Assembly: GCF_004337505.1 (NCBI RefSeq)
Contig: NZ_SJZI01000042.1
Location: 1-64,000 of the forward strand
Reading direction: 5' to 3'
Length of the DNA stretch: 64,000 nucleotides
From: Flaviaestuariibacter flavus
GTDB lineage: Bacteria > Bacteroidota > Bacteroidia > Chitinophagales > Chitinophagaceae
In this document: positions 6,833 through 55,810 of the stretch, piece by piece
Numbering within the stretch: the stretch's first letter is position 1
How the letters are laid out: every line of letters begins with the position of its first letter
The notes under the pieces: generated by a model
Seen by the model: the letters and a program-made list of their open reading frames with translations, nothing else
Databases searched by the model: none
Told to the model about the DNA's origin: nothing
Position numbers and translations under genes: made by a program

Positions 6833-6862
6833 CCAAAGGCGTCGCGCAAGCGACGCCTTTGG
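6833..6862 (+). terminator. Hairpin after the helicase-nuclease gene
   Basis: CCAAAGGCGTCGC (6833-6845) and GCGACGCCTTTGG (6850-6862) form a perfect 13-bp stem closed by a GCAA tetraloop. There is no T run; the family-1 repeat begins two bases later. Confidence 0.65.
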
Positions 6863-7011
6863 CGTCATTGCGAGCGGAGCGAAGCAAACTCCCTGAATAA
6901 AAGACTGACCGTAGCCAGTAAAAGCTTCAGCTGGCAAATTCTTGTGGCTTCGAACGCCCTGCGTAAATCCGGAGTTTGCTTCGCTCCGCTCGCAATGACA
7001 GCTTCGCTGTC
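6852..7011. repeat. Family-1 palindromic element, copy A
   Basis: The arms GTCATTGCGAGCGGAGCGAA... (6864-6892) and its perfect 29-bp inverse (6971-6999) enclose a 78-bp core that contains ACTGACCGTAGCCAG. Edge hairpins are GACGCC-TTT-GGCGTC (6852-6866) and GACAGC-TTC-GCTGTC (6997-7011). Related copies lie near 13612, 15511, 31437 and 55664. Confidence 0.9.
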
Positions 7012-7126
7012 GCTTCGCCCGTTACCTGCAACCTCAGAACCCTAGAACCATAAAACCTTCTTTTAGCCCTTCCTTAACCCGTCGCTATCCGCCATTGCCC
7101 TGAAAGACGTTAAGTTTGCCTTCTCC

Positions 7127-8545
7127 ATGAAGAAGGCATTTTTCCTCTTTATTACCGCGCTGGGCGGCGTACTGGCCCTTACGGGCGGCACGGGCTGCGC
7201 CACCATCATTCCGCCGCAGGGCGGCCCGCGCGACTCGCTGCCACCGAAGCTGGTGAAGGCCACACCCGCCGAAGGCGCGGTGAACGTCAACACCCGCACC
7301 ATCGAGCTCACCTTCGACGAGTTTGTGGATATCAGCCGCGAGGGCGGCGGCGAGCTGGTGATGTCGCCGCTTTATACGAAGCGCCCGGATGTCCGCACGC
7401 GCCTGCGTACGGTTACCATCGAGCTCAAGGACAGCCTCGAACCCAACACCACCTACAGCTTTAACTTCGACGGGGCCATCAAAGACATCAACGAGGGCAA
7501 CACGCTCCGCAACTTCACGTATACCTTTTCCACCGGCCCGGCGCTCGACTCGCTCACCTATAGCGGCTCGGTGCAGCTGGCCGAAACGGGTGGCATCGAC
7601 ACGACACTTACGGTGGCGCTCTACCGCAACCTGCGCGACAGCGCCGTGGTGCTGGAGTCGCCCCGCTACATCACCCGTGTTAACGGCAGCGGCAACTTTA
7701 CCTTCCGCAACCTGCCGGGCGGCACTTTTGCGGTTTATGCGTTCGACGATAAGTCGCGCACCCGCCGCTACCTGAGCAAGAGCCAGCTTTTCGCTTTTGC
7801 CGATTCGCCCATCGTGGTGCGTCCCGGCGCCCCTGAGCTGCGGCTCTTCGCCTACGTGGAGCAGCCTGTTGCGGCCGCCGGCGCCAATGGTGCCCGCACC
7901 GCGCCGCAGCCCGCCACCGACCGGCGCCTTAAGTATACCCCGGCCGTCACCACCGCCCAGGAGCTGCAGGGCGACTACCGCATCAACTTCGACAACCGGG
8001 TGCGCAGCCTCGACAGCGGTAAGGTGCGCCTCGTGCGCGATAGCGTATTTACGGAGGTGCCGCGTCGCCTCTCGCTCGACAGCACCGGCCGCGTGCTGGC
8101 GGTGCGGGCCGCCTGGGCCAGCGGCGAGCGCTATGCCCTCATCCTCGGGAAGGATTTTGCTACCGACACCACCGGCCGCAGCCAGCTGCGCAACGATACA
8201 CTGCGCTTTGCGGCAAAAAAGACCTCCGACTACGGCAACCTGCTGCTGCGCTTCCGCAATGTGAAGGCGGGCCTGAACCCGGTGCTGCAGATGATCCAGA
8301 ACAACAGCGTGGTGTTCTCGGCGCCGATCGGCTCGGGTGAGCTGTCGCGGGCGCTCTTCATCCCGGGCGACTACGAGTTGCGGGTGCTCTTCGACACCAA
8401 TGGCAACGGTAAATGGGATCCCGGTGCTTTCTTCAATGGTCGCCGCCAGCCCGAGATCGTGGTGCCGGTAGACAGGCGCCTGGTGGTGAAGCCGGATATC
8501 GAAAACGAGATCGAGATCGCGGTGCCGGATATGCCACGGAGATAA
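7127..8545 (+). CDS. Ig-like (Big_5) domain lipoprotein
   Basis: The 472-residue product starts with a signal peptide whose Cys lies in GGTGCA, so it is likely a lipoprotein, followed by PPQGGPRDSLPP, a signature common to Bacteroidota Ig-like domain proteins. The Big_5/SbsA-type domain follows (about residues 38-135: ATPAEGAVNVNTRTIELTFDEFV, then LEPNTTYSFNF and FTYTFSTG). The C-terminal half is beta-rich and ends with a segment describing DTNGNGKWDPG, a loop also seen in carboxypeptidase-regulatory-like folds. The protein is presumably exported to the outer membrane; its partner is unknown. It stands alone, with repeat DNA on both sides. Confidence 0.85.
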   Translation: MKKAFFLFITALGGVLALTGGTGCATIIPPQGGPRDSLPPKLVKATPAEGAVNVNTRTIELTFDEFVDISREGGGELVMSPLYTKRPDVRTRLRTVTIELKDSLEPNTTYSFNFDGAIKDINEGNTLRNFTYTFSTGPALDSLTYSGSVQLAETGGIDTTLTVALYRNLRDSAVVLESPRYITRVNGSGNFTFRNLPGGTFAVYAFDDKSRTRRYLSKSQLFAFADSPIVVRPGAPELRLFAYVEQPVAAAGANGARTAPQPATDRRLKYTPAVTTAQELQGDYRINFDNRVRSLDSGKVRLVRDSVFTEVPRRLSLDSTGRVLAVRAAWASGERYALILGKDFATDTTGRSQLRNDTLRFAAKKTSDYGNLLLRFRNVKAGLNPVLQMIQNNSVVFSAPIGSGELSRALFIPGDYELRVLFDTNGNGKWDPGAFFNGRRQPEIVVPVDRRLVVKPDIENEIEIAVPDMPRR

Positions 8546-8580
8546 TCTGAAGATCTCGGATCTCCGATCTCAGATCTTGG
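8546..8580. repeat. GATC-rich short repeat run
   Basis: The words GATCTCGGATCTCCGATCTC recur with a 7-9 base period immediately after the stop codon. The remainder of the gap to recR (8581-8904) holds nothing I can identify. Confidence 0.6.
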
Positions 8581-8904
8581 TTCCTGGTTTTGACCGCTTC
8601 TCTTGTACCTACCGATCCTATTCTTTCATTCGCAACTTCGATCAGAAGAAATGATTCCCCTTCCGTGAGGCAGCAGAGTCTCCGAACTATAGTCCGGCTC
8701 CCTAAAAATATCCTTCGCGTTAAATAAAAACGTCCCCGGAAAGGGCAATGCATCAATGGCACGGGGCGGCCTCTACTCGCATAGGCTAGCGTACACGGAT
8801 GCCTTGCCTGTAGCGGGTTTCAAGAGAATGTTAATCATCATTTTCTGTCGTCAAAGCGGCCCTTTTTTGATGCCTTTTTAACCACTTCCCGGGCCTATAT
8901 TTTG

Positions 8905-8912
8905 TATCTTTG
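8905..8912 (+). promoter_or_regulatory. -7 promoter motif for recR
   Basis: TATCTTTG fits the Bacteroidota -7 consensus TAnnTTTG and ends only 7 bases before the recR ATG, so the transcript would be leaderless or nearly so. Confidence 0.6.
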
Positions 8913-8919
8913 GAGCCTT

Positions 8920-9543
8920 ATGCAATTTTCCTCAGCCCTTCTTGAAAACGCGGTCAACGAGTTCGCCAAGCTGCCCGGTATCGGGCGCAAAACGGCCCTG
9001 CGCCTCGTGCTGCACCTGTTGAAGCAGGAGCCCGAGGAAGTGCAGCATTTTTCGGAGATCATGAGCCGGATGCGGGGCGAGATCAAGTTCTGCCAGCGCT
9101 GCCACAACGTGGCCGATGCTGATATCTGCTCCATCTGCTCCAACTCGATGCGCAAGCAGGATCTCATCTGCGTAGTGGAAAATATCCGCGACGTCATCGC
9201 CCTCGAAAGCACGCAGCAGTTCAGCGGTACTTACCATGTGCTCGGCGGCGTTATCTCCCCGCTCGACGGCGTGGGGCCATCGCAGCTCAATATCGACACG
9301 CTGGTGCACCGCATCGCCAAGGAAGAGACGGCCGAGGTGATCTTCGCGCTGAGTCCCACGATCCAGGGCGACACTACCATCTACTATATCCAGAAGAAGC
9401 TGCCCGCTACCTGCCGGGTAACCACCATCGCCCGCGGTATCGCCTTTGGCGGCGAGCTCGAATATGCCGACGAGATGACCCTGGCCCGCTCGCTGCAGAA
9501 CCGCCTGCCGATCGAGAGCTATGTGTCGCAGGCAGCGCGCTGA
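8920..9543 (+). CDS. recR: Recombination protein RecR
   Basis: RecR loads and stabilises RecFOR complexes on gapped DNA so that RecA can replace SSB. The 207-residue product has the expected order: helix-hairpin-helix LPGIGRKTALRL near the N-terminus, the four-Cys zinc finger FCQRCHN...CSICSN, and a Toprim domain beginning LICVVENIRDVIALE. The ATG at 8920 is preferred to the upstream frame start because the family begins with M-x-(F/Y)-S-x-x-(L/I)-E. Length agrees with the family (about 200). A TATCTTTG promoter motif lies just upstream. The gene is monocistronic, with an inverted repeat downstream. Confidence 0.97.
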   Translation: MQFSSALLENAVNEFAKLPGIGRKTALRLVLHLLKQEPEEVQHFSEIMSRMRGEIKFCQRCHNVADADICSICSNSMRKQDLICVVENIRDVIALESTQQFSGTYHVLGGVISPLDGVGPSQLNIDTLVHRIAKEETAEVIFALSPTIQGDTTIYYIQKKLPATCRVTTIARGIAFGGELEYADEMTLARSLQNRLPIESYVSQAAR

Positions 9544-9570
9544 GGCGCAATGTTTAATCAATAATCTTAA

Positions 9571-9614
9571 TGTCCAATGTTGTAGTGAGTTCATCGCTAC
9601 TTAAGCATTGGACA
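9571..9614. repeat. AT-rich inverted repeat after recR
   Basis: TGTCCAATG (9571-9579) is inverted at CATTGGACA (9606-9614), with GTAG/CTAC pairing further inside. It resembles the AT-rich palindrome after holB (39921-40010). Confidence 0.6.
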
Positions 9615-9641
9615 ATATCCATTATAAATTTTCTATTGCCT

Positions 9642-9649
9642 TATCTTTG
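9642..9649 (+). promoter_or_regulatory. -7 promoter motif for the metH pair
   Basis: TATCTTTG matches TAnnTTTG. It implies a leader of roughly 120 bases before the metH1 ATG at 9778. Confidence 0.6.
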
Positions 9650-9676
9650 CACCCACAGCGGATTTGTTTATTGTTC

Positions 9677-9735
9677 GGCTCCACAGAACTAATAAACGCA
9701 GGCTCCCCTCCTTTAATGGTTCCCCTACGTTTATT
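9677..9735 (+). promoter_or_regulatory. Structured leader of the methionine synthase operon
   Basis: AATAAACG (9691-9698) pairs with CGTTTATT (9728-9735). GG(C/T)TCCMC is repeated three times, at 9677, 9701 and 9718. I could not fit it to the SAM-I, SAM-II, SAH or cobalamin riboswitch consensus, so its role is open. Confidence 0.4.
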
Positions 9736-9777
9736 GTCCCAACTGCCGGGCAGCCGCCGCTGCTAAATCATTTCTTT

Positions 9778-10799
9778 ATGGCAGATATACGCAAGGCCCT
9801 GCAGGAACGCATCCTTATCATCGACGGCGCGATGGGCACCATGATCCAGCGGCACGGGCTGCAGGAGGCCGATTACCGCGGCGCGCGCTTCGCCGACTGG
9901 CCCAGCGACCTCAAGGGCAATAACGACCTGCTGTGCCTCACACAGCCCGACATTATCCGCGGCATCCACCGCCAGTACCTGGAGGCCGGCGCCGACATCA
10001 TTGAAACAAACACCTTCAATGCGCAGCGCGTGTCGCTGGAAGACTACGGCATGCAGTCGCTGGCCTACGAGCTCAACGTGGCCGCGGCGCGCGTAGCCAG
10101 GGAAGCCGTAGCCGAATACGTGGCCGCCAACCCCGGCGCGGTAAATAACAGCCCCTGGGTGGCCGGCGCCATCGGTCCGCTCAATAAAACGCTCTCCCTT
10201 TCCCCCGACGTCAACAACCCCGGCTACCGGGCGCTCACCTTCGACGAGGCGGCCGACGCCTACTACGAGCAGGTAAAAGGCCTCGTGGACGGCGGCGCCG
10301 ACCTGCTGCTGGTGGAAACGATCTTCGATACGCTCAACGCCAAGGCGGCGATCTTCGCCATCCGCAAGTATTTCCGCGAAACAGGCAAGGAGCTGCCGAT
10401 CCTGATCTCCGGCACCATCACCGACGCTTCGGGCCGCACGCTCAGCGGGCAGACGCTGGAGGCTTTCTACACCTCGGTGCGTCATGCGCGCCCGCTCAGC
10501 ATCGGCCTCAACTGCGCCCTTGGCGCCAAAGAGATGCGCCCGCACATCGAAGAGCTCAGCACCATTGCCGAATGCTTTACCTCGGCCTATCCCAACGCCG
10601 GCCTGCCCAACGCCATGGGTGAATACGACGAGCATCCCGCCGACACCGCGCACTTCATCGAAGACTGGGCGAAAGAAGGTTTCGTGAATATCGTGGGGGG
10701 CTGCTGCGGCACCACGCCCGATCATATCCGCCACATCGCGGAGCAGGTGCGCACCATCAAGCCAAGACCATTACCGACACTCGAAAAAGAATTAGCATC

Positions 10800-10803
<4 letters not shown>
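9778..10803 (+). CDS. metH: Methionine synthase, homocysteine-binding module (MetH1)
   Basis: This is the N-terminal barrel of cobalamin-dependent methionine synthase as a separate 341-residue protein. It binds homocysteine through zinc; the ligand cysteines are visible in IGLNCALG and in [12 protein letters not shown]. The start [13 protein letters not shown] is typical. Split MetH genes are common in Bacteroidota. The ATG at 9778 ([20 protein letters not shown]) is preferred to an upstream frame start at 9664 that would run through the leader. Its stop overlaps the GTG start of the second half by four bases, so the two parts should be made in equal amounts. Confidence 0.93.
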
Positions 10804-13529
<2,726 letters not shown>

Positions 13530-13542
13530 TTTGGAAAGATTA

Positions 13543-13582
13543 AATGCAGAAGGCGACGCTTGGGCGTCGCCTTCTGCATTTG
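13543..13582 (+). terminator. Terminator after metH2
   Basis: An 18-bp perfect stem, AAATGCAGAAGGCGACGC (13543-13560) with its inverse (13565-13582), has a TTGG loop. Confidence 0.8.
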
Positions 13583-13597
13583 GTAGAGCGCGAAGCG

Positions 13598-13758
13598 ACG
13601 GCCTCCGGCCGTCATTGCGAGCGGAGCGAAGCAAACTCCCCGATCTGAAGACTGACCGTAGCCGGCAAAAGCTTTAGTTCGTAAACTCTTTCAGATTCGA
13701 CCACCCTGCGTAAATCCGGAGTTTGCTTCGCTTCGCTCGCAATGACAGCTACGCTGTC
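13598..13758. repeat. Family-1 palindromic element, copy B
   Basis: The 29-bp arms are at about 13612-13640 and 13718-13746. Edge hairpins are GACGGCC-TCC-GGCCGTC (13598-13614) and GACAGC-TAC-GCTGTC (13744-13758). The core is in the same orientation as copy A (ACTGACCGTAGCC). Confidence 0.9.
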
Positions 13759-13776
13759 GGCTTCGCGCGTAGCATG

Positions 13777-14385
13777 CTACAGCAAACCTGTTGCTTTCAG
13801 CTCTGCTTCCAGTTGCTCCGGCGCCGTAAAGCGGATGCACTGAATTCCCAGCTCCTCTGCCGCCTTTACATTACGCGCATTGTCGTCAATGAAAAGCGTG
13901 TTGGCTGCTTCGAGGCCGAAGCGCTCCAGTGTGAGCTGGTAAAATTCCGGGAAGGGCTTGCGCATCTTTTCTTCACCGCTTACCACGCGCCCGTCGAACC
14001 AGTGAAGAAACTCGTAGCGCTCCAGCGCGATGGGAAAGAGCTCGGCGCTCCAGTTGGTCAGTGCGTAAATCTTATAGCGGCCGCTTTCCTTTAGCTGCCG
14101 GAAGATCTCCACGGTGCCTTCGATGGGCCCGCCGAGCATTTCCTCCCAGCGGCCGTAGTAGGCTTCGATCTGCTCCTTCCATTCGGGATGGCGGTCTACC
14201 AACAGTTGCGTGGCTTCGCGCAGGGAGCGGCCGGCGTCCTGCTCCTCGTTCCAGTCGGAGGTGCAGATTTTTTCGAAGAAGTGCCTCTTGTCTTCAGGGC
14301 GGCCTTCAAAAACTTTATTAAATACATAGTCGGGGTTCCAGTCGATGAGAACGCCCCCGAGATCGAAAATGATATCCTGGATCAC
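13777..14385 (-). CDS. HAD-family hydrolase (phosphatase)
   Basis: The 202-residue product is a HAD subfamily IA hydrolase: motif I IFDLGGVLIDW with the nucleophile Asp and a Gly in place of the second Asp, motif II ALTNWS, motif III Lys in KMRKPFPEFY, and motif IV FIDDNARNV. The DxG form of motif I occurs in a subgroup of HAD phosphatases. Substrate unknown. I chose the GTG at 14385 (VIQDIIFDLGG): it is directly upstream of motif I and a TACCTTTG promoter motif lies 17 bases before it. The neighbouring gene is a paralogue with the same start variant. Confidence 0.88.
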   Translation of the reverse strand: MIQDIIFDLGGVLIDWNPDYVFNKVFEGRPEDKRHFFEKICTSDWNEEQDAGRSLREATQLLVDRHPEWKEQIEAYYGRWEEMLGGPIEGTVEIFRQLKESGRYKIYALTNWSAELFPIALERYEFLHWFDGRVVSGEEKMRKPFPEFYQLTLERFGLEAANTLFIDDNARNVKAAEELGIQCIRFTAPEQLEAELKATGLL

Positions 14386-14402
14386 GATGGTTGTTTGTGC
14401 GG

Positions 14403-14410
14403 CAAAGGTA
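14403..14410 (-). promoter_or_regulatory. -7 promoter motif for the HAD gene
   Basis: On the minus strand this reads TACCTTTG, 17 bases before the GTG start at 14385. Confidence 0.6.
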
Positions 14411-14431
14411 GAAAGCGGCCGGACGTGGAGC

Positions 14432-14543
14432 GAAAGAACGCTGATTACGCATGCGGAATGCGCAGGTTGTTTATGATTTGCATTCGCCCGCAACCTTATC
14501 TGCGTTAATCTTAATAAATCATAAGAAATCTGCGTTCTTTCTC
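14432..14543. repeat. Family-2 long palindrome, copy a
   Basis: GAAAGAACGCTGATTACGCA faces AAATCTGCGTTCTTTCTC across a partly paired middle with TTATGATTTG/AAATCATAA. Four other copies occur at 23344, 45708, 54075 and 56665. Confidence 0.8.
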
Positions 14544-14545
14544 AC

Positions 14546-15151
14546 TCAAAGCAGGCCACGCAATTTCAGGTCGCGGCGCAGGGTTTCGGGGTCACGGAAG
14601 ACGATGCCGTCCATGCCCAGGTTAACAGCGGTGGCTACATTGCTTTCCCGGTCGTCGATATATACCGCAGTAGCAGCATTGATGTTGAAACGCTCTAACA
14701 GTACGAGGTATAGCCCGGGATGCGGCTTGGTCATTCGCTCGGCGCCGCTGAGTACGATGCCGTCGAACCAGTCGAGGAAGGGAAAGTCGCAGCGCGATTG
14801 CTCAAAGAGCTCGGCGCTCCAGTTGCTGAGGGCGTATTGCGAAAATCCTTTCTCTTTCAGGGTGCGCAGAATTGCCACAGAGCCTTCGATTTCGCCCTGG
14901 AACATTTCTTTCCAGCGTGCGTAAAAGGCACGGATCGGTTGCTCCCACGCAGGGTGCTGCCGCACGAGTTGTTCGGTGGCCTCTTTCACCGGCCGGCCGC
15001 CATCAACGGTGTTGTGCCACTCCATGGTGCAGATATGCTCCAGGAAGTGGTCGCGCTCTTTGCTGTCTTTGAAGATTTTATCATAGAGGTAACGCGGGCT
15101 CCAGTCTACCAGCACGTTACCCAGGTCCCAGATGATGCTGCGGGTACTCAT
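14546..15151 (-). CDS. HAD-family hydrolase (phosphatase), paralogue
   Basis: A 201-residue HAD-IA protein, similar throughout to the product of the gene at 13777-14385: motif I IIWDLGNVLVDW, motif II ALSNWS, Lys in RMTKPHPGLY, and motif IV YIDDRESNV. The two probably arose by duplication and may differ in substrate. The start ATG at 15151 overlaps the stop of the upstream SemiSWEET gene (ATGA), so translation is coupled. A family-2 palindrome separates it from the first HAD gene. Confidence 0.9.
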   Translation of the reverse strand: MSTRSIIWDLGNVLVDWSPRYLYDKIFKDSKERDHFLEHICTMEWHNTVDGGRPVKEATEQLVRQHPAWEQPIRAFYARWKEMFQGEIEGSVAILRTLKEKGFSQYALSNWSAELFEQSRCDFPFLDWFDGIVLSGAERMTKPHPGLYLVLLERFNINAATAVYIDDRESNVATAVNLGMDGIVFRDPETLRRDLKLRGLL

Positions 15152-15468
15152 GAAGTCACCTGCTCTTTGGGTAGCACTACTTTCACCGTGCCTCCGGTTG
15201 CCGTTGTGTGGCTTTTGCCGTAGCGAAACTTGAAATACAGCATGATGACCGAGAAGACGAGCACGAGGCTGTTGGTATAAATAATGGGAACGCTCTTTTT
15301 GACGATGCCGTACACCAGCCACAGGATGACCGAGATGGTGGCGAAGGTGAACATGAGCAGCGAGATGTCGGCCGCCGACTTCGTGCGCCAGGTCTTGATC
15401 ACCTGCGGCAGGAAGGTGATGGCGGATATGGAGCCGGCGACCATGCCGAGGATTTCGATGAGTTCCAT
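15148..15468 (-). CDS. SemiSWEET-type sugar transporter
   Basis: The 106-residue product has three predicted membrane helices and the MtN3/PQ-loop features of SemiSWEETs: ELIEILGMVAGSISAITFLPQVIKTWRTKSAADIS (split here only by description) with the PQ pair in helix 1 and the KS-x-x-DIS segment, and YGIVKKSVPIIYTN in the last helix. SemiSWEETs work as dimers and move sugars along the gradient. The ATG at 15468 gives the usual length of about 90-105; the longer frame reads into repeat DNA. It is cotranscribed with the HAD gene by a four-base overlap. Confidence 0.88.
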   Translation of the reverse strand: MELIEILGMVAGSISAITFLPQVIKTWRTKSAADISLLMFTFATISVILWLVYGIVKKSVPIIYTNSLVLVFSVIMLYFKFRYGKSHTTATGGTVKVVLPKEQVTS

Positions 15469-15497
15469 GTCGTTGTGTTTAAGTGAAGGTACAGCGC

Positions 15498-15646
15498 GAC
15501 GGCGATAGCCGTCATTGCGAGCGAAGCGAAGCAAGCTCCTGATTCACGCAGGGTGGTCGAAACGCAAACGGTTTCCGCATAGGTGCTCTCTTTGGTTTCA
15601 ATCAGCCTTTAGGTCGGGGAGTTTGCTTCGCTACGCTCGCAATGAC
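15498..15646. repeat. Family-1 palindromic element, copy C (core reversed)
   Basis: The arms are 15511-15539 and 15618-15646. The core is in the opposite orientation to copies A and B (ACGCAGGGTGGTCG at its left). The left edge hairpin is GACGGC-GATA-GCCGTC (15498-15513); the right end is joined to a terminator instead. Confidence 0.88.
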
Positions 15647-15675
15647 GAGAAAGGCCCGCGGAGCGGGCCTTTCTC
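15647..15675 (-). terminator. Terminator after the GH97 gene
   Basis: GAGAAAGGCCCGC (15647-15659) pairs perfectly with GCGGGCCTTTCTC (15663-15675) five bases beyond the minus-strand stop. Confidence 0.85.
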
Positions 15676-15679
15676 TTAA

Positions 15680-17791
15680 TTACTTCTTGCTTTTCGGCAC
15701 AATGCTGATCGCGCATCCGCCGCCCGCGGCGAGCTTCAGCGGAAGCTTTGTGGCGGACGTAACCGTCATCGTTTCGATCTTGTAGGCCTTCGGGTTGTTT
15801 TGCCAATGGGCATCGTCGGCATCGCGGTAGATCGTTGCGATGTAGGCACCGGGCCCGAGGAAAGACAGGTCGGCTTCGACGCTGCGCGGTTTTTCGTTGC
15901 TGATGGCGCCGAGGAACCAGGCATTGCGGCCTTTCGCCTTTCGCGCCACGAGGAGGTATTCGCCGGGCTCAGCGGCGAGGTAACGCGTGTCGTCCCAGTC
16001 GGTAGGAACGTCTTTAATGAACTGGAATGCATCCAGGTGCTTCTCGTAGTTCTCCGGCAGGTCGGCAGCCATCTGCAGCGGGCTGTACATCGTTACGTAA
16101 AGCGCCAGCTGCTTGGCGAGCGTTGTATGCACCTGCTCCTTCTTCTTCGGGTCATAAGCGCTCATCTTGATCTCGAAGATGCCCGGCGTATAATCCATGG
16201 GACCACCCATGAGGCGTGTAAAGGGCAATATGGTTTCATGCGCCGGCGGGTTGCCCACGCTCCAGGCGTTGAACTCGTTGCCCCGTGCGGCTTCCGAAGC
16301 CAGCCAGTTGGGATAGGTGCGGTGCAGGCCGGTGGGTCGGGTGGGTTCGTGCATATCCACCATGATGCCGTAGCGGCCGGTCTTTTCTGCCACGCGCACA
16401 TAATGATTCACCATCCACTGCCCGTCGTGGTGCTCGCCGCGCGGAATGATGCGGCCCACATATCCCGTCTTCACGGCGTCGTAGCCATGCTGCTTCATAA
16501 AGCGGTAAGCGGTATCCATCCAGCGCTCGTAGTTGGTGACCGAGCCCGAGGTTTCGTGGTGCATGATCAGCTTCACGCCTTTCTTCTTTGCATAGGCCTG
16601 CAGCTCCTTTACGTTGAAGTCGGGGTAAGGCGTCACAAAGTCGAACACATTCTCCTTCCATTTGCCGTACCAGTCTTCCCAGCCCACGTTCCAGCCTTCC
16701 ACCAGCACCCCGGGGATGCCGTGCTTTGCGGCAAAGTCGATATAGCGCTTCACGTTGGGGGTGTTGGCCCCGTGGTGGCCGTGCGCCACCAGCGTGGAGG
16801 CGGATTGCGTGGCGGCGTAGTCCCAGCTGCTTTTGCCCACGTGCATCTCCCACCATACGCCCACAAACTTCTGCGGGCGGATAAAGGCCGTCGACTTCAG
16901 CTTCGTGGGCTCGTTGAGGTTGAGGATCATTTTGGTGGAAGCCAGCACTTCGGTTGCCTTGTCGCTGACGATGATGGTGCGCCAGGGCGTATGCGCCGGC
17001 GCCTGCAGGTAGGCTGCGTTGCCCACCGCATCGGGCACCAGCACCGATTGCAGCGTATTGTTGCTTTTGTTGACGGCGAGGTCCATCGCGGGGTAGTTCA
17101 CCAGCGCGGCCTCGTGTATGTTGATATAAAGACCGTCGTCGCTCTTCAGCATGAGCGGTGTCTGCACATAGTCTTTGCCGATGATGCTTTTTACGCCGAT
17201 CTCGCTATGCGTGCTGTCGGCCCAGGCATCTACGGCGCTGAGGCGCGTGCGGTGGTAAGGATATTCGTTGGAGTCGAAGTCACCGGGGATCCAGAAGGCG
17301 TTGTGATCGCCGGCGAGGTGAAACTGCGTGTTCTCGCTGGCCACCACGAAATGCTGCAGGGCTGCCTGCGCCGGGAATTCGTAGCGGAAGCCGAGGCCTT
17401 CGTTGAAGAGCCGGAATACCACATCCACGCGTAGGTGCTGGTCGCCGAGGTCTTCGAGCCCGAGGCGCAGCTCGTAGTGGCGGTCGCGGATGCTGGCCCA
17501 CTCGCCCCACACGGGCTGCCAGCTGGCGTCGTGGGTGCTGGTGGTGTTGGCCGTTATGCGGAACAGCGAGAGGTTTACGTTGGGCTCCTTCAGGGTGATG
17601 CCCAGCGTTCCGGGAAGCAGCACCGGTTTGTTTTTGTAGGTGAGGCTATAGCGGAGCTGTCCGGTGGCCTCGTTGGCAACATCAAGGCGCAGGGCGCCGT
17701 CGGGCGACTGCAGGCTGAATGTTTTCTGACCAAAGGCAAACAGCCCGGAGGCCAGTGCCACAAGAAGGGAGAGGTAGCGTTTCATAATCAT
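15680..17791 (-). CDS. Glycoside hydrolase family 97 (alpha-glycosidase)
   Basis: The 703-residue protein has a signal peptide (MKRYLSLLVALASGLFAFGQ) and the three GH97 parts: an N-terminal beta-sandwich (to about 280), a catalytic barrel (PGVLVEGWNVGWEDWYG, LIMHHETSGSVTNYE, VDMHEPTRPTGLHRTYPNW) and a small C-terminal domain. The Glu in HHET resembles the calcium-dependent inverting alpha-glucosidase branch (SusB), although alpha-galactosidase activity cannot be excluded from sequence alone. It is probably periplasmic. The first ATG overlaps the stop of the LOG gene (ATGA), so the two form an operon. No SusC/SusD pair is nearby. Confidence 0.93.
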   Translation of the reverse strand: MIMKRYLSLLVALASGLFAFGQKTFSLQSPDGALRLDVANEATGQLRYSLTYKNKPVLLPGTLGITLKEPNVNLSLFRITANTTSTHDASWQPVWGEWASIRDRHYELRLGLEDLGDQHLRVDVVFRLFNEGLGFRYEFPAQAALQHFVVASENTQFHLAGDHNAFWIPGDFDSNEYPYHRTRLSAVDAWADSTHSEIGVKSIIGKDYVQTPLMLKSDDGLYINIHEAALVNYPAMDLAVNKSNNTLQSVLVPDAVGNAAYLQAPAHTPWRTIIVSDKATEVLASTKMILNLNEPTKLKSTAFIRPQKFVGVWWEMHVGKSSWDYAATQSASTLVAHGHHGANTPNVKRYIDFAAKHGIPGVLVEGWNVGWEDWYGKWKENVFDFVTPYPDFNVKELQAYAKKKGVKLIMHHETSGSVTNYERWMDTAYRFMKQHGYDAVKTGYVGRIIPRGEHHDGQWMVNHYVRVAEKTGRYGIMVDMHEPTRPTGLHRTYPNWLASEAARGNEFNAWSVGNPPAHETILPFTRLMGGPMDYTPGIFEIKMSAYDPKKKEQVHTTLAKQLALYVTMYSPLQMAADLPENYEKHLDAFQFIKDVPTDWDDTRYLAAEPGEYLLVARKAKGRNAWFLGAISNEKPRSVEADLSFLGPGAYIATIYRDADDAHWQNNPKAYKIETMTVTSATKLPLKLAAGGGCAISIVPKSKK

Positions 17792-31426: not shown

Positions 31427-31586
31427 GACGCGAAGCGTCATTGCGAGCGTAGCGAAGCAACCTCCCCGACTTTAAAACTGACCGTAGCCAGTAACAGCTT
31501 CAGTTCGAATTTTTTTTCAGGCGCTACCATCCTGCGTAAATCAGCAGTTTGCTTCGCTACGCTCGCAATGACGGGCTACGCCCGTC
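31427..31586. repeat. Family-1 palindromic element, copy D
   Basis: The arms are 31437-31465 and 31544-31572, with a G-C rich loop variation (GCGTAGCG, GCTACGC). Edge hairpins are GACGC-GAA-GCGTC (31427-31439) and GACGGGC-TAC-GCCCGTC (31570-31586). The core is oriented as in copies A and B. Confidence 0.9.
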
Positions 31587-49232: not shown

Positions 49233-49257
49233 AAGCCCCCGGGGTATCCGGGGGCTT
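49233..49257 (-). terminator. Terminator after the PfkB kinase gene
   Basis: AAGCCCCCGG (49233-49242) pairs with CCGGGGGCTT (49248-49257), 24 bases beyond the minus-strand stop. Confidence 0.75.
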
Positions 49258-49280
49258 CGCCAGTTGTTTCTGTATTTCGG

Positions 49281-50204: not shown

Positions 50205-50330
50205 AAGAAATTCCAGTGTTTTTGAGCGATGAAGATGGCGGAAAAGGCCATCGCCCGACGAAAAGAAGGGCGTGCAAACCTAAGCCAATCGGGCAGGATG
50301 CCCAAAAAAAAGCGGCCCGGGGCCGCATGG

Positions 50331-50367
50331 AGATGTCAGATGTCAGATGTGATGAGGTCAGATTTGT
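50331..50367. repeat. GATC/CAGATGT repeat run
   Basis: AGATGTCAGATGTCAGATGT then GATGAGGTCAGATTT, the same style as the other short-period runs. Confidence 0.5.
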
Positions 50368-50379
50368 ACCTGCTTTTAA

Positions 50380-50413
50380 CTCCCTCCCTTTTGGCGAGGG
50401 CCGGGGAGGGGTC
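50380..50413. repeat. GC-rich palindrome at the end of the barrel gene
   Basis: CTCCCTCCCTTTTGGCGAGG then GCCGGGGAGGGGTC. It touches the stop codon of the gene at 50413-51180. Confidence 0.5.
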
Positions 50414-51180: not shown

Positions 51181-51394
51181 AATTCAGGTTGGGTTGAGAG
51201 CTGTAAAAGTACAGGCCGGCGCGCAAATGACATAGCCGGCGGCCGGAATGCGCGCTTTGGCCCCCGTCGGGCAGCACCGGCGCCGCATCCCCCGGGTCGG
51301 GGACCCTGAACCCCTCCGGGGGCTTCCGATGAACCAGCCATCCCTTACTCTGGGAAACGCGCATGCCTCCGGCATGCCTTTCTTTCCCTTTTTT

Positions 51395-51440
51395 GAGGGA
51401 GCGCCACTCCCTCCCCTTTTGGAGCGGGTTGGGGTGGGGC
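51395..51440. repeat. GC-rich palindrome before paaE
   Basis: GAGGGAGCGCCACTCCCTCC followed by CCTTTTGGAGCGGGTTGGGG. GGGAGCGCC and the CCCTCCC blocks are shared with the element inside paaB. Confidence 0.6.
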
Positions 51441-51469
51441 CGTGTTCCGTATCTTCGCGCCGCTTTGCT

Positions 51470-52552
51470 ATGATCCACTTCCATCCTCTTACAGTGAAAA
51501 AGGTGCAGCGGGAAACCGACGACTGCGTGTCCATCACCTTCAACGTGCCCGCCGACCTGCGGGAAGCCTTCCGCTTCCGCGCGGGGCAGACCCTCACATT
51601 TCGCAAAACCCTCGACGGCGAAGAGCTGCGCCGCAACTACTCCATCTGCAGCTCACCCCTCGAGGGGGTGCTGCGCGTAGCCGTGAAGCAGGTGCCCGGC
51701 GGCAAGTTCTCCACCTGGGCCAACACGGAACTGAAGGCTGGCGACACCCTCGAGGTGATGCCGCCCACCGGCAAGTTCTGCATCGACCTCGACGCCACCC
51801 AGCGCCGCCAGTACGCCTTCTTCGCCGCCGGCTCGGGCATCACACCCGTGCTGTCGCTCATCAAGACGGTGCTCGCCACCGAGCCCGGCAGCCAGTGCAC
51901 TCTTGTATTCGGCAACCGCAGCAAGAGCTCCATCATCTTCAAGGAGGAGCTGGAGGCGCTCAAAGACAAATACATCGACCGCTTCCGCATCTACCACGTG
52001 CTGAGCCGCGAGCGTACCGACGCCGCCGTCAACTACGGCCGCATCGACCGCGACAAGTGCGCCCTGCTGGTAGACAAGCGCCTCCTCGATCTTAACAGCA
52101 CCGACCACTTCTTTATCTGCGGGCCCGAGGAAATGATCTTCTGTGTGCGCGACTTCCTGCAGGACGCGGGCGTCGACGGAAAGCGCATCCACTTCGAGCT
52201 TTTCACCGTGCCGGGCCAGAAAGGCTCCACGGTGCATACCGAAACGCAGCCCGTGGCCGACAGCGGCCCGCGGAGCGCCGTAACGGTGAAGCTTGACGGC
52301 ATCGCCTTCGACTTCGAGCTGGCGCAGAACGGTCACAGCATCCTCGACGCTGCCCTGAAGCAGGGCGCCGACCTGCCCTATGCCTGCAAGGGCGGCGTAT
52401 GCTGCACCTGCAAGGCCAAACTCCTCGAGGGTACCGTGAATATGGACCAGAACTGGGGCCTCGAGCCCGATGAGGTAGCCGCGGGCTTCATCCTCACCTG
52501 CCAGGCCCACCCGACGACGGGAAGGGTGGTGGTGGATTTTGACGCGAAATAG
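51470..52552 (+). CDS. paaE: Phenylacetyl-CoA epoxidase reductase subunit PaaE
   Basis: PaaE passes electrons from NADPH to the PaaA di-iron centre. The 360-residue protein has an FAD domain (RRNYSICSSP), an NAD(P) domain (GSGITPVLSLI, ICGPEEMI) and a C-terminal 2Fe-2S ferredoxin domain with CKGGVCCTCKAKL and a last Cys in LTCQAHP. The ATG at 51470 is preferred: the upstream frame reads through GC-rich repeat DNA. TATCTTCG, one base off consensus, lies 22 bases upstream. It comes first in this cluster, 80 bases before paaA, rather than last as in E. coli. Confidence 0.95.
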   Translation: MIHFHPLTVKKVQRETDDCVSITFNVPADLREAFRFRAGQTLTFRKTLDGEELRRNYSICSSPLEGVLRVAVKQVPGGKFSTWANTELKAGDTLEVMPPTGKFCIDLDATQRRQYAFFAAGSGITPVLSLIKTVLATEPGSQCTLVFGNRSKSSIIFKEELEALKDKYIDRFRIYHVLSRERTDAAVNYGRIDRDKCALLVDKRLLDLNSTDHFFICGPEEMIFCVRDFLQDAGVDGKRIHFELFTVPGQKGSTVHTETQPVADSGPRSAVTVKLDGIAFDFELAQNGHSILDAALKQGADLPYACKGGVCCTCKAKLLEGTVNMDQNWGLEPDEVAAGFILTCQAHPTTGRVVVDFDAK

Positions 52553-52605
52553 AACCGCTCCCCGGCGCCCTTTGTTAAAGCGAAAATCAACGGTGCCCGG
52601 AAACG

Positions 52606-52613
52606 TAAATTTG
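52606..52613 (+). promoter_or_regulatory. -7 promoter motif for paaA
   Basis: TAAATTTG, 19 bases before the paaA ATG. paaA can therefore be transcribed independently of paaE. Confidence 0.6.
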
Positions 52614-52632
52614 TAAGGATAAACTACCGAAT

Positions 52633-53580
52633 ATGAGCGTACAGGAACTCGAGAAAATCTTCCAGGACAAGGTCGATGCCGAAGTGCGGATCGAGCCCAA
52701 AGACTGGATGCCGGAGAAATACCGCCAGAACCTGATCCGCCAGATCTCGCAGCACGCGCACAGCGAGATCGTGGGGATGCTGCCCGAGGGCAACTGGATC
52801 TCGCGGGCCCCGTCGCTGAAGCGCAAGCTCATTCTTATTGCCAAGGTGCAGGACGAGGCAGGCCACGGCCTTTACCTCTACAGCGCCGCCGAAACCCTCG
52901 GCATTTCGCGCGACGAGATGACCGAGCAACTGCTCTCGGGCAAGGCCAAATATTCCTCCATCTTCAATTACCCCACGCTTACCTGGGCCGATATGGGTGC
53001 CATCGGCTGGCTCGTGGATGGCGCCGCCATCATGAACCAGGTGCCGCTCTGCCGCACCTCCTACGGACCCTATAGCCGTGCCATGATCCGCGTGTGCAAG
53101 GAAGAAAGCTTCCACCAGCGCCAGGGCTTTGAGTCGCTGCTGGTGCTGAGCCAGGGCACCGGAGAGCAGAAGGCCATGGTGCAGGACGCCATCGACCGCT
53201 GGTGGTGGCCAAGCCTGATGATGTTCGGGCCCACCGACGATGCCTCGCCGCACTCGCAGCAGTCGATGCGCTGGAAGATCAAGCGCTTCTCCAACGACGA
53301 GCTGCGCCAGCGCTTCGTGGATATGATCGCCGAGCAGGTGAAGCTCCTCGGCTGCACCCTGCCCGACCCCGAGCTTAAATGGAACGAAGCGCGCGGCCAC
53401 TACGATTTCGGCCCCATTAACTGGGAGGAGTTCTGGAACGTGGTAAGCGGCAACGGTCCTTGCAACAAGGAGCGCCTCGCCGCCCGCCAGAAGGCCTGGG
53501 ACGAAGGCGCCTGGGTGCGCGAAGCCGCCGTGGCCCATGCGGAGAAGCGGGCTGCCCGCCGCACCGCGCAGGTAGCATAA
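52633..53580 (+). CDS. paaA: Phenylacetyl-CoA epoxidase catalytic subunit PaaA
   Basis: PaaA holds the di-iron centre that epoxidises the aromatic ring of phenylacetyl-CoA. The 315-residue protein has both ExxH pairs, in [18 protein letters not shown] and [14 protein letters not shown], and closely follows the E. coli protein (309 residues), including [21 protein letters not shown]. It works with PaaC as a heterodimer, with PaaB as the bridge. It ends in an Arg/Ala-rich tail. A GATC-rich run separates it from paaB. Confidence 0.97.
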
Positions 53581-53614
53581 AATCTCAGATCTCTGATCTC
53601 TGATCTCGGATCTG
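53581..53614. repeat. GATC-rich repeat run between paaA and paaB
   Basis: AATCTCAGATCTCTGATCTC then TGATCTCGGATCTG, five GATCT words at an 8-9 base period. Confidence 0.65.
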
Positions 53615-53648
53615 TTCGAAGAATTCAAACTATAAAGCACATTGCGCT

Positions 53649-54065
53649 ATGCAACTGTTTCGCAGGTTTTTTTACGGAGATTATGACGCCATCCAGAAGG
53701 GTGGCGAACCCGGACCCACCCCCGGCCCCTCGCAAAGGGAGGGGAGCGCCGCCCCCCTTCCCCTCGGGAAGGAACTGGGGGATGGGTCTGAATGGCCTTT
53801 ATGGGAAGTCTTCATCCGCTCCAGGCAGGGCCTCGACCACAAGCACGTAGGCTCGCTGCATGCCGCCGATGCCGCCATGGCCATCGAAAACGCCCGCGAT
53901 GTATATACGCGCCGCCAGGAAGGCGTATCGATCTGGGTGGTGGAAAGCAAATTCATCCACGCCTCCAACCCCGACGAAGCCGAATCGTTTTACGAGCCGG
54001 CGAACGATAAAGTTTATCGTCATCCGACCTTTTACGACCTGCCGGATGAACTGACGCATATGTAA
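53649..54065 (+). CDS. paaB: Phenylacetyl-CoA epoxidase subunit PaaB with repeat-derived N-terminus
   Basis: From residue 48 the protein is a normal PaaB (WPLWEVFIRSRQGLDHKHVG, then SLHAADAAMAIENARDVYTR and YRHPTFYDLPDELTHM). PaaB normally has about 95 residues and begins a few residues before WPL(W/Y)EVF; here there are 138. Residues 22-47 (EPGPTPGPSQREGSAAPL and following) are encoded by a 76-bp GC-rich palindrome of the intergenic type. No ATG, GTG or TTG lies in frame between the repeat and WPLWEV, so translation must pass through the insert or the protein is not made. The start ATG at 53649 is therefore forced. Confidence 0.9.
   Translation: MQLFRRFFYGDYDAIQKGGEPGPTPGPSQREGSAAPLPLGKELGDGSEWPLWEVFIRSRQGLDHKHVGSLHAADAAMAIENARDVYTRRQEGVSIWVVESKFIHASNPDEAESFYEPANDKVYRHPTFYDLPDELTHM
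53713..53788. repeat. GC-rich palindrome inserted in paaB
   Basis: Outer arms GACCCACCCCC and GGGGGATGGGTC, inner CCCCTCGCAAAGGGAGGGG and TTCCCCTCGGGAA. It shares GGGAGCGCC with 51395 and GGGGGATGGGTC with 36998-37068. Confidence 0.75.
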
Positions 54066-54074
54066 AATACCGCA

Positions 54075-54190
54075 GAGAAAGAACGCTGATTCCGCAAGCG
54101 GAATGCGCAGATTGGTTATGATGTACGGGCATGGTACCGATACCTGCGTACATCATAACAGATCATAAAAAATCTGCGTTCCTTCTCTCT
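54075..54190. repeat. Family-2 long palindrome, copy d
   Basis: It begins GAGAAAGAACGCTG followed by the hairpin ATTCCGC-AA-GCGGAAT (here at the left end), and ends AAATCTGCGTTCCTTCTCTC. The middle pairs TTATGATGTACG with CGTACATCATAA. It is in reversed orientation to copies b, c and e. Confidence 0.85.
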
Positions 54191-54223
54191 TCTCCAGGCA
54201 TCACGAATCTAACTTCTACACAC

Positions 54224-55033
54224 GTGGCACAACAGCACTTCGAATACATCCTGCATCTCGCCGACAACGCCCTCATCCTCGGACAACGTAATGCCGAATG
54301 GTGCGGTCATGGGCCGGTGCTGGAGCAGGACATCGCCATTACTAATATCTCGCTCGACCTCATCGGCCAGGCGCGGATGCTGTTTCAGCATGCCGCTGAA
54401 ATCTATAACGCCATGGACGATGCCGGCAAAGCATCGGTAGAAAAGCTGCTGCCCCGCACCTGGAAGACCTATGGCCGCGAGTTGCAGGAAGACGATCTCG
54501 CCTTCCTCCGAGACGAGCGCCAGTACCGCAACCTGCTGCTTACCGAGCTGCCGAAAGGCGACTGGGCACAGACGATCCTGCGGCAGTTCTTCTTCTCCGC
54601 CTTTCAATACGCGCAATACGAGGCGCTGCAGCAAAGCGGCGACAGCACGCTTGCGGCCATCGCCGAGAAGTCGCTCAAGGAAGTGACCTACCACCGCCGC
54701 TGGAGCGCCGAATGGGTGGTGCGTCTTGGTGACGGTACCGAAGAAAGCCGCCGTCGCATCGAAGGGGCGCTGCAGGAGCTCTGGCCCTTTACGGGCGAGG
54801 CCTTCAAGGCCGCCGGTTTTGAAGACGGTGATTTCGCCCCCGATCCCGCTCGCTTCCGTGCGGCCTGGGACGAGCGCGTAGCCGCGGTTTTTGCCGAAGC
54901 CACGCTTGCCGTGCCCGCTACCGGCACCTGGAGCCAGGAGGGCGGAAAGCGCGGCATCCACACCGAATACATGGGTTACCTGCTGGCAGAGATGCAGACC
55001 CTGCAGCGCAGCTATCCGAATGTGACCTGGTAG
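54224..55033 (+). CDS. paaC: Phenylacetyl-CoA epoxidase structural subunit PaaC
   Basis: PaaC is a catalytically inactive paralogue of PaaA that pairs with it. The 269-residue product has the family start FEYILHLADNALILGQRNAEW, CGHGPVLEQDIAITNISLDLIGQAR and the HTEYMGYLLAEMQTLQR end. The start GTG at 54224 (GTGGCACAACAG) gives the usual N-terminus; the only earlier in-frame ATG, at 54131, lies in a family-2 palindrome. Between paaB and paaC there are 158 bases filled by that palindrome, an unusually large gap for this operon. Confidence 0.95.
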   Translation: MAQQHFEYILHLADNALILGQRNAEWCGHGPVLEQDIAITNISLDLIGQARMLFQHAAEIYNAMDDAGKASVEKLLPRTWKTYGRELQEDDLAFLRDERQYRNLLLTELPKGDWAQTILRQFFFSAFQYAQYEALQQSGDSTLAAIAEKSLKEVTYHRRWSAEWVVRLGDGTEESRRRIEGALQELWPFTGEAFKAAGFEDGDFAPDPARFRAAWDERVAAVFAEATLAVPATGTWSQEGGKRGIHTEYMGYLLAEMQTLQRSYPNVTW

Positions 55034-55040
55034 GATGGAA

Positions 55041-55124
55041 ATCTTTCGATCTCGGATCTCAGATCCCAGATCGGAAGCCTGGCAATAAAGTTAAGATCTG
55101 AGATCTGACATCAGCCATCTGACA
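55041..55124. repeat. GATC-rich repeat runs between paaC and paaD
   Basis: TCTTTCGATCTCGGATCTCA and GATCCCAGATCGGAAG (55041-55075), then AGATCTGAGATCTGACATCA (about 55094-55124). The two runs are roughly inverse to each other. Confidence 0.65.
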
Positions 55125-55132
55125 CTAACTCT

Positions 55133-55618
55133 GTGCTTTCTGAAGATGCAATATGGACCCTGCTCGCGGATGTCAAAGACCCCGAGATCCCGGTGCTTTC
55201 CGTGCTGGACATGGGCATCATCCGTGCAGTGTCGGTGACCGGCGACGCGGTTGAGATCGTCATCACGCCCACCTACTCGGGCTGTCCCGCGATGGATGTC
55301 ATCGCGATGGACATACGTCTCAAGCTGATCGAGCGGGGCATCCGCAAGGTGCAGATCCGCCACCAGCTTTCACCCGCCTGGACTACCGACTGGATGTCGG
55401 AAGCGGGCAGGGAAAAGCTCCGCGCCTTCGGAATCGCGCCGCCCAACCCGAAGCAGCAATTCTGCAGCACCGATATGTTCGTGGAAGAAGCCGTGCAGTG
55501 TCCCCGCTGCGGTTCCTGGAACACCGAGCTCATCTCGCAATTCGCCTCCACCGCCTGCAAGAGCATGTACCGCTGCAGGGATTGCAAGGAGGCCTTTGAT
55601 CATTTTAAATGTCATTGA
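55133..55618 (+). CDS. paaD: Phenylacetate degradation protein PaaD
   Basis: The 161-residue protein has an N-terminal MIP18/DUF59 domain (VKDPEIPVLSVLDMGIIRAV, PTYSGCPAMDVI) and a C-terminal zinc-ribbon-like part with CPRCGS and CRDCKEAFDHFKCH. PaaD is thought to help mature the metal centres of the epoxidase. Translation starts at GTG 55133 (GTGCTTTCTGAAGAT); there is no earlier start in frame. It follows two GATC-rich runs after paaC and is followed by family-1 copy E. Confidence 0.93.
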   Translation: MLSEDAIWTLLADVKDPEIPVLSVLDMGIIRAVSVTGDAVEIVITPTYSGCPAMDVIAMDIRLKLIERGIRKVQIRHQLSPAWTTDWMSEAGREKLRAFGIAPPNPKQQFCSTDMFVEEAVQCPRCGSWNTELISQFASTACKSMYRCRDCKEAFDHFKCH

Positions 55619-55649
55619 CGTCAACCGGGAGTTGCTTGCGTGCGAAGCC

Positions 55650-55810
55650 GACGGGCAGCGCCCGTCATTGCGAGCGGAGCGAAGCAAACTCCTCAATTAC
55701 GCAGGGTGGTCGTGGCCATAAGGAGCTTTCGCATCGAAGCTCTCTCCGGCAACAGCCAGTCTTTAGGTCGGGGAGTTTGCTTCGCTCCGCTCGCAATGAC
55801 GCTTCGCGTC
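55650..55810. repeat. Family-1 palindromic element, copy E (core reversed)
   Basis: The arms are 55664-55692 and 55772-55800. Edge hairpins are GACGGGC-AGC-GCCCGTC (55650-55666) and GACGC-TTC-GCGTC (55798-55810). The core runs as in copy C (ACGCAGGGTGGTCG). Confidence 0.9.

Follow-up and report, generated by a model that had tools for sequence, protein, structure and literature searches.

The window analyzed here is a stretch of 64,000 nucleotides, the first 64 kb of contig 42 (NZ_SJZI01000042.1) in the 3.96-Mb draft genome of Flaviaestuariibacter flavus (GCF_004337505.1), and it contains five copies of a short dispersed repeat, which we call family 1. A copy consists of two arms arranged head to head, which resemble repetitive extragenic palindromic (REP) sequences. 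Each arm has a GTC tag on its outer side, and at the tag stands another hairpin, referred to below as the second-tier hairpin. The original prediction, made from the letters of the sequence, listed five copies and second-tier stems for nine of their ten ends, and all of these are present at the predicted positions. The parts of the five copies are:

6832..6863, copy 1, left second-tier hairpin of the long type, 14-bp stem GCCAAAGGCGTCGC, loop GCAA
6864..6999, copy 1, core with head-to-head REP-like arms (GTCATTGCGAGCGGAGCGAAGCAA...)
6997..7011, copy 1, right second-tier hairpin GACAGC-TTC-GCTGTC, tag included
13597..13613, copy 2, left second-tier hairpin GACGGCC-TCC-GGCCGTC
13611..13746, copy 2, core
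13744..13758, copy 2, right second-tier hairpin GACAGC-TAC-GCTGTC
15498..15513, copy 3, left second-tier hairpin GACGGC-GATA-GCCGTC
15511..15646, copy 3, core
15647..15675, copy 3, right second-tier hairpin of the long type, 13-bp stem flush with the tag
31427..31439, copy 4, left second-tier hairpin GACGC-GAA-GCGTC
31437..31572, copy 4, core
31570..31586, copy 4, right second-tier hairpin GACGGGC-TAC-GCCCGTC
55650..55666, copy 5, left second-tier hairpin GACGGGC-AGC-GCCCGTC
55664..55800, copy 5, core
55798..55810, copy 5, right second-tier hairpin GACGC-TTC-GCGTC

The tenth end, at 15646, was left out of that list; it has a perfect 13-bp hairpin (GAGAAAGGCCCGC-loop-GCGGGCCTTTCTC) flush with GTC. 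At the left end of copy 1 two alternative hairpins are available: the 14-bp one and, formed from its 3' half, GACGCC-TTT-GGCGTC (6852-6866). When copy 2 (13582-13775) is folded as DNA, both outer hairpins stand as separate arms beside a long stem (z -8.8), whereas the RNA fold prefers an extended long arm stem over the outer hairpins (z -9.2). An Rfam scan of the window gives no match at gathering scores.

Across the genome, we consider a sample of 52 complete family-1 copies with 104 ends, so that the copy number is at least 52; loci are given as Cn:position, where n is the contig. The arm has the form ATTGC-GA-GCGNAGC-GAA-GCAA, a REP-like hairpin that bears CGTC or TGTC as its outer tag and has a tail that is mostly CTCC, and the head-to-head layout of such tagged hairpins is REP-like. 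The base preceding the GTC tag is C at 72 ends, T at 24, G at 4 and A at 1, and the tag is not GTC at the other 3. The variable base of the GCGNAGC motif is nearly equally distributed over the 104 arms (G 26, T 24, C 21, A 20, other 13), and d(GCGNAGC) forms a DNA mini-hairpin of unusual stability.

The second-tier hairpins are divided into a short class, with a 5-7 bp stem closed by the terminal GAC/GTC, and a long class, with a 12-16 bp stem. Among the 104 ends, 63 have a perfect tag-closed short hairpin, 7 have one with a single mismatch, 31 have a long hairpin (25 perfect, 5 with one mismatch and 1 with two), and 3 fall below the rule; at two of these, inspection by eye shows a hairpin that is shorter or offset. 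In a strict test that accepts only a perfect flush hairpin, 90 of the 104 ends are positive, compared with a mean of 1.27 and a maximum of 4 in 200 dinucleotide shuffles. This confirms the edge hairpins; that most copies might lack them, which had been named as the outcome that would count against the original prediction, is not the case. In two near relatives (genomes G011 and G016), a hairpin is found at 15 of 26 family-1-like ends when longer stems may contain one mismatch (shuffle mean 0.88, maximum 4), and the arm-plus-interior motif also occurs in a named relative, Flaviaesturariibacter aridisoli (Bacteroidota, Chitinophagales).

The perfect short stems are GACAGC (17), GACGGCC (14), GACGGGC (14), GACGC (10), GACGGC (3), GACCGC (2) and three single cases, with GNA loops in 32 and TNC loops in 10 of the 63. 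The earlier claim that both sides of these stems vary without loss of pairing holds: when the 3' arms of the 70 short-hairpin ends are permuted among these ends in 10,000 rounds, 12.5 of the 70 are complementary on average (maximum 24), compared with 63 observed. Some pairs of ends whose 16-29 outer bases are identical bear different hairpins (for example, C46:17493 and C8:554450), while other such pairs bear the same one.

The two hairpins of one copy tend to be unlike. In none of the 21 family-1 copies with two short hairpins are the stems identical, where 4.0 are expected (p 0.008), and in all 21 a 7-bp stem on one side faces a stem of 5-6 bp on the other. Note that the grouping of stems into types P and Q is post hoc, so the ungrouped test of identical stems is the one to trust. 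Identical hairpins at both ends are seen in a 513-bp long copy of family 1, described below. These unlike ends fit with the argument from palindrome instability that Di Nocera et al. put forward for REP heterodimers (PMC3733652). Two further associations were considered and rejected: the orientation of the interior is not linked to hairpin type (left/right P 16/17, Q 16/13, long 15/14), and hairpin type is not carried along with the core (Mantel r -0.05, p 0.91, 48 copies). Because hairpin type does not track core similarity, the family-1 hairpin probably turns over after insertion.

A clearer, and the clearest, case of covariation is provided by another repeat of this genome, family 3 (GTCATCCTGAGCG...), which has perfect 13-bp stems at 12 of the 12 ends of six copies and at 2 of 3 ends at two further loci. 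For covariation, 14 ends (12 distinct sequences) were aligned, leaving out the second strand of L255, which has GCAC and an imperfect hairpin. All 156 of 156 cells pair, 7 of the 13 pairs show a two-sided change, and there are 27 two-sided changes, no one-sided change and no G-U intermediate. The covariation score is 0.483, compared with 0.131 in shuffles and at most 0.204 with the partner slid. The 13-bp length and the ACAA/TTGT foot are invariant in these 14 ends, the sequence GCAC lies outside the hairpin at all 15 of the 15 ends read, and in none of six copies are the hairpins of both ends identical. By comparison, family 2, which begins with the same GTCATTGCGAG (first eleven bases) as family 1, has a flush hairpin at 0 of 22 flanks; this count is based on 11 pairings of 7 loci and is partly redundant.

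One copy each of families 1 and 3 is longer and contains an intact-looking gene. The 513-bp copy of family 1 (C44:76395-76907) has two-tier ends that enclose a 100-aa GIY-YIG open reading frame (Pfam E 8.1e-13). Similarly, among the family-3 copies read, five are short (129-131 bp) and one, of 566 bp (C50:116106-116671), contains a GIY-YIG gene, so that two families in one genome share the same relation between short and long copies. Miniature inverted-repeat transposable elements have terminal repeats in common with an autonomous element and target site duplications; here, the short and long copies have their ends in common, and no duplication was identified. The encoded protein belongs to the GIY-YIG nuclease superfamily by its Pfam domain and its conserved residues: Y8, Y19, G21, R29, E68 and N87 of the query are present in 49 of 49 homologues, and H33 in 48 of 49. 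The conserved Tyr, Tyr, Arg, Glu and Asn residues are presumably catalytic. No relative of solved structure is found at E 0.01, and NCBIfam gives no match over its cut-offs. Apart from these copies, GIY-YIG reading frames occur in the units of a 351-bp tandem array near the ends of two contigs (C2:497270-499150 and C43:112246-113163; L180-L187 and L194), in one locus of which (L184) ARAGORN finds no tRNA.

The neighborhood of this nuclease gene was compared in other bacteria using two samples. With the long-copy nuclease as a query, 95 of 298 genomes of an order-level sample are matched, and the query locus and the 29 other loci returned were tested; in addition, we used 17 of 32 matching records of a plasmid collection, several of them chromosome-sized, the 15 left out being mostly near-duplicate strains by name. 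A REP is counted on a side if an outward-tagged GTCAT hairpin lies within 300 nt of the GIY-YIG gene. According to this strict rule, the order-level loci have a REP on 33 of 60 sides and on both sides in 11 of 30 cases, compared with 1 of 52 windows located 700-1000 nt away, and the plasmid-collection records have one on 20 of 34 sides and on both sides in 9 of 17 cases, compared with 1 of 34 such windows; these control windows include coding DNA, where REPs are rare. Other genes on 49-kb stretches of three of those replicons, to which this control is confined, give 5 of 242 sides and 0 of 121 with both. Under a relaxed rule, which accepts the tag GTC[AG][TC], 65 of 98 sides and 7 of 94 control windows are positive; for the other genes, it is positive on 45 of 242 sides and on both sides in 7 of 121 cases. 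Since the relaxed rule produces noise in GC-rich replicons, we rely on the strict one. By the strict rule the query locus is negative, the first pair of its arm being mismatched, as are two Sphingobium, Novosphingobium and Sinorhizobium K101, where inverted repeats still flank the gene (scores 18-31).

GIY-YIG genes with neighboring REPs are seen in several phyla, and the REP stems after GTC differ between the loci (ATTGC, ATTTC, ATTCC, ATCCT, ATCCC and ACCCC). In Azospirillum lipoferum 4B, the gene and its REPs lie between sufB and sufC and are missing in three relatives read; together with the Sphingobium, Sinorhizobium and Shinella loci, where relatives lack the gene at the matching place, there are four loci of this kind, all compared between species or strains only. 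Among the empty Sphingobium sites, one (TomTYG64) retains a single REP and one retains none, and the Sinorhizobium relative retains REP-like pieces. The GIY-YIG matches include Azospirillum lipoferum, Sinorhizobium meliloti, Novosphingobium aromaticivorans and Neisseria, which PMC3733652 names as hosts of CGTC REPs. At four plasmid-collection records (L227, L230, L233 and L235), the genes are flanked by extra REPs or nested inverted repeats.

The known system closest in form is the CGTC-tagged REP, surveyed by Di Nocera et al. (2013; PMC3733652). That survey defines these REPs by an unpaired CGTC or TGTC tag, an 8-9 bp stem starting with AT, a loop of 4-5 and a tail that is mostly CCA, finds them in five phyla including Bacteroidetes, and reports no associated transposase gene. 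Head-to-head dimerization, with unlike partners preferred, is also described there, as are dimers placed within palindromes and REPs beside unrelated stem-loops. Family 1 shares the tag, the AT-initial stem, the head-to-head pairs with a spacer, the unlike partners (known there in several families) and the location between co-directional or convergent genes in a member of the Bacteroidetes. In contrast, its tag closes the second hairpin at the 63 perfect and 7 mismatched ends, its stem ATTGC/GCAA(A) is short and interrupted, its loop is a three-base GNA and it has no CCA tail; moreover, long copies of families 1 and 3 enclose a GIY-YIG gene where the survey reports no transposase link. In view of its paired tag, its interrupted stem and its different loop and tail, family 1 is a variant of CGTC-tagged REP dimers and not a strict member.

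Other systems are similar in part. GTAG REPs, including bacterial interspersed mosaic elements, REPINs and the REPtrons of REP-associated tyrosine transposases (RAYTs), are pairs of short palindromes, presumably spread by an enzyme whose gene neighbors these repeats, but they have another tag and a Y1 HUH transposase in place of the GIY-YIG nuclease. The terminal inverted repeats of P. putida and P. fluorescens, which are degenerate GTAG-1 units, join a REP hairpin to a second stem-loop at the element end; unlike the present case, they belong to the GTAG family with its tyrosine transposase, and the section of PMC3733652 on them describes neither covariation nor tag pairing. Neisseria dRS3 has the CGTC-1 tag type (PMC3733652), whereas the second-tier hairpin was not found there; in one N. 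gonorrhoeae record, a GIY-YIG homologue lies between CGTCATTCCCGCG.../CGTCATTCCCACG... repeats. GIY-YIG homing endonucleases share the catalytic domain and the selfish-gene context, but here the protein is a single domain of ~100 aa, flanked by REPs and not located in introns or inteins.

The original prediction knew of no description of the two-tier architecture. This stands for the tag-closing second hairpin, which we did not find among the matches listed in literature searches, and falls for CGTC REP dimers and related arrangements, which are published (PMC3733652). A link between GIY-YIG genes and REPs was not found among the matches listed in a search of the published literature, judged by title, a search whose scope leaves preprints and most subscription papers outside. 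A word search of a 2006 survey of GIY-YIG proteins (PMC1564403) finds none of the terms palindrome, repetitive, extragenic and inverted repeat. In a sequence look-up of papers, GTCATTGCGAGCG has no match, and the matches listed for TCATTGCGAG all look unrelated by title.

Taken together, these results suggest that the five repeats of the window are short copies of a mobile-looking element, and that REPs reported to have no enzyme are linked to one. We lean, if only slightly, toward the explanation that family 1 consists of miniature, gene-less copies of a mobile element REP - GIY-YIG gene - REP that would move as follows. Each end is a REP-like hairpin with an outer CGTC or TGTC tag, the two ends being head to head, and in this lineage a second hairpin caps the tag and lies flush with the REP one. 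The nuclease made from a long copy would recognize the REP hairpins or tags and nick or cut DNA, either at the ends of its own element or at a new location, the element would be copied in by repair, and short copies would use the nuclease in trans; both the activity of the enzyme and the movement of the element are what we infer. The second hairpin would be a part of the element, as the position of GCAC in family 3 indicates, and its stem would turn over fast, with both arms changing at once, most likely by hairpin-templated synthesis. Loss of this hairpin would be selected against, and the unlike hairpins on the two sides may keep the pair from forming one long palindrome. We extend this more tentatively, as a proposal that could well fail, to CGTC REPs in general: they may be the ends of widespread minimal elements REP-GIY-YIG-REP in Bacteroidota and Alphaproteobacteria and, going by a single record each, in Betaproteobacteria, Gammaproteobacteria and Cyanobacteria, with the nuclease as a dedicated mobilizing enzyme acting on DNA hairpins, to which Flaviaestuariibacter-like bacteria would have added a second, fast-evolving, tag-closing hairpin.

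Several observations weigh against this explanation. The interiors of the long and short family-1 copies are only weakly alike (scores 17 and 18, compared with shuffle maxima of 15), and no target site duplication was identified at the elements. Nine of the 16 GIY-YIG matches in the genome form one kind of tandem array, matching inverted REPs are present at only two (L189 and L190) of five loci compared with the query, and 2 of the 17 plasmid-collection loci (Photobacterium and Rhizobium tumorigenes) have no repeat at all. The independence of hairpin type from core similarity argues against a simple co-transposition of hairpin and core. Terminator scans that covered L254 and window positions 6700-16000, where copies 1-3 lie, left the long hairpins unflagged. 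At REP ends beside GIY-YIG homologues of other taxa, the second-tier hairpin is found at 0 of 62 ends by the relaxed tag rule, and it is also missing in family 2; such elements therefore do not need this hairpin in general, and it is lineage-specific. Finally, GIY-YIG enzymes are nucleases and are not known to act as strand-transfer transposases.

The chief rival takes the GIY-YIG gene as a passenger, that is, a homing-type nuclease gene lodged in REP pairs, where it would be safe between genes, while the REPs are relics or are moved by another agent. The gene does occupy the spacer of a REP pair, the single REP of Sphingobium TomTYG64 lies at a site that holds REP-GIY-YIG-REP in relatives, and GIY-YIG domains were first found in homing endonucleases (PMC1564403). 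We nevertheless judge this unlikely, in view of the recurrence of the link with different REP stems in several phyla, as expected of an enzyme evolving with its own ends, and of the fact that PMC3733652 reports no other enzyme for CGTC REPs. Another explanation concerns the hairpins, which might be target sites: the element would insert flush beside pre-existing hairpins, such as gene terminators. Long hairpins of varied sequence adjoin 31 of the 104 ends and face the 3' end of a gene in 24 of 31 cases, compared with 38 of the 69 called sides with short hairpins, and REP dimers inside palindromes are known in three species (PMC3733652). On the other hand, the element-free sites of relatives also lack the hairpin: G011 and G016 have neither at the site of copy 1, and at the site of copy 3, G016 has 24 nt with neither, while G011, of the same genus, has a decayed REP half and a long hairpin of different sequence. 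The tag G and T lie in the long stem at 16 and 12 of 31 ends, compared with about 8 and 2 by simple reckoning, and family 3 has GCAC outside its hairpin. The pattern GCGAAGC(N)GAC...GTC occurs at 41 places in the genome; 39 distinct contexts examined (39/39) continue into a core, so the short hairpin was rejected as an element-free dispersed repeat, and at the other two places (C4:50997 and C42:277001) the middles form no hairpin. The hairpin AAGGCGTCGC...GCGACGCCTT adjoins a listed core at 12 of 15 places, and at the remaining ones a short hairpin intervenes (L138), only a core-like remnant is present (L141) or there is no core (L142). Target sites appear rather improbable.

The remaining explanations concern the force that shapes the hairpins. 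The original prediction took compensatory change as an argument for selection on structure. The two-sided change is real, but template switching during replication is reported to create or repair both hairpin arms at once and maintain perfect stems (PMC8794818), and this weakens the step from covariation to selection; it would also explain the absence of one-sided changes, none of which is seen in family 3. In the purely mutational form of this explanation, replication would arrest at the strong REP hairpin and fold-back of the nascent strand would write a functionless palindrome, with which the different hairpins next to identical outer bases at some ends agree, though other ends share a hairpin. 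We regard the purely mutational form as doubtful: family 2 and the 62 REP ends of other taxa have no flush hairpins, though equally able to stall replication, and the aligned family-3 ends retain their length and foot. Judging by its constant length in family 3, its flush position and its presence in both long copies, the second hairpin seems to be kept. Selection for transcription termination or RNA 3' ends, insulating the element and its neighbors, seems quite improbable. Of the 52 pairs, with genes called by our own codon-score script, 29 lie between co-directional, 17 between convergent and 5 between divergent genes (51 copies with both neighbors called; 1 not called), many long hairpins have A-run/T-run feet and family-3 stems are ACAA...TTGT. 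However, in place of the GC stem with an unpaired T-run of an intrinsic terminator, the T-run is short and lies inside the stem, the scans mentioned above list no such hairpin, family 3 has no G-U intermediates, and the RNA fold of copy 2 favors the long arm stem where the DNA fold retains the outer hairpins. For processed RNA ends, the other role named in the original prediction, this sequence-based analysis found no evidence. Recognition of the hairpins by a RAYT, a Y1 tyrosine transposase that would mobilize the family, had been suggested in the original prediction. The genome has four Y1_Tnp genes, one of them with an untagged ATTGCGAGCGAAGC beside a long hairpin upstream, but none (0/4) lies between tagged family-1 arms within about 1.5 kb on each side or is flanked by REPs as in a REPtron; an outward GTC hairpin within 300 nt is found on 1 of 8 sides by the relaxed rule, and the tag is not GTAG but GTC, with C or T before it at 96 of 104 ends. 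This makes the RAYT explanation highly improbable. The untagged ATTGCGAGCGAAGC is that of L056 (C19, minus strand), near locus position 2021.

The window has further features that touch on these elements:

2411..2810, cluster of GTCATCCTGA-type REP-like hairpins upstream of the next gene, tags at 2411 (+), 2658 (-) and 2810 (-)
2987..3304, + strand, single-domain GIY-YIG gene, 105 aa, Pfam E 3.1e-16, of the same enzyme group and outside family 1
13542..13581, 18-bp hairpin past the upstream gene, immediately ahead of the outer module of copy 2
57268..57325, + strand, decayed family-1 half copy (GTCATTGTGAGCGAAGCAAACTCC) behind a 16-bp hairpin

By the relaxed rule, no outward tagged hairpin lies within 300 nt of the gene at 2987-3304. 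A different dispersed repeat family (AGAGAAAGAACGC ... ATAAATCATAA) occurs in the window at 14421, 23335, 45701, 54066 and 56654. Elsewhere in the genome, L138 (C47:91164-91848) has two hairpins in tandem on one side of a copy, a long one and a short tag hairpin, separated by GTTGGCAGGCGAAGCC, the left flank of L017 (C8:554247-554447) has its outer module and hairpin duplicated in tandem, and L064 (C42:733280-733760) has largely lost its core, the remnants of both outer modules seeming close together. In the intergenic DNA flanking many copies, degenerate short repeats of the form AATCGTGAATCGTCAATCG lie beside the elements.

REPs are repeats that occur commonly in bacterial genomes, and a large group of them, those with the CGTC tag, has been reported without a dedicated transposase. 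The link to a nuclease, seen in two families here and in unrelated bacteria, makes this open question of the enzyme testable at the bench with one small protein and short hairpins. In addition, the two-tier ends provide a clean natural case in which compensatory stem change may come from selection or from template switching.

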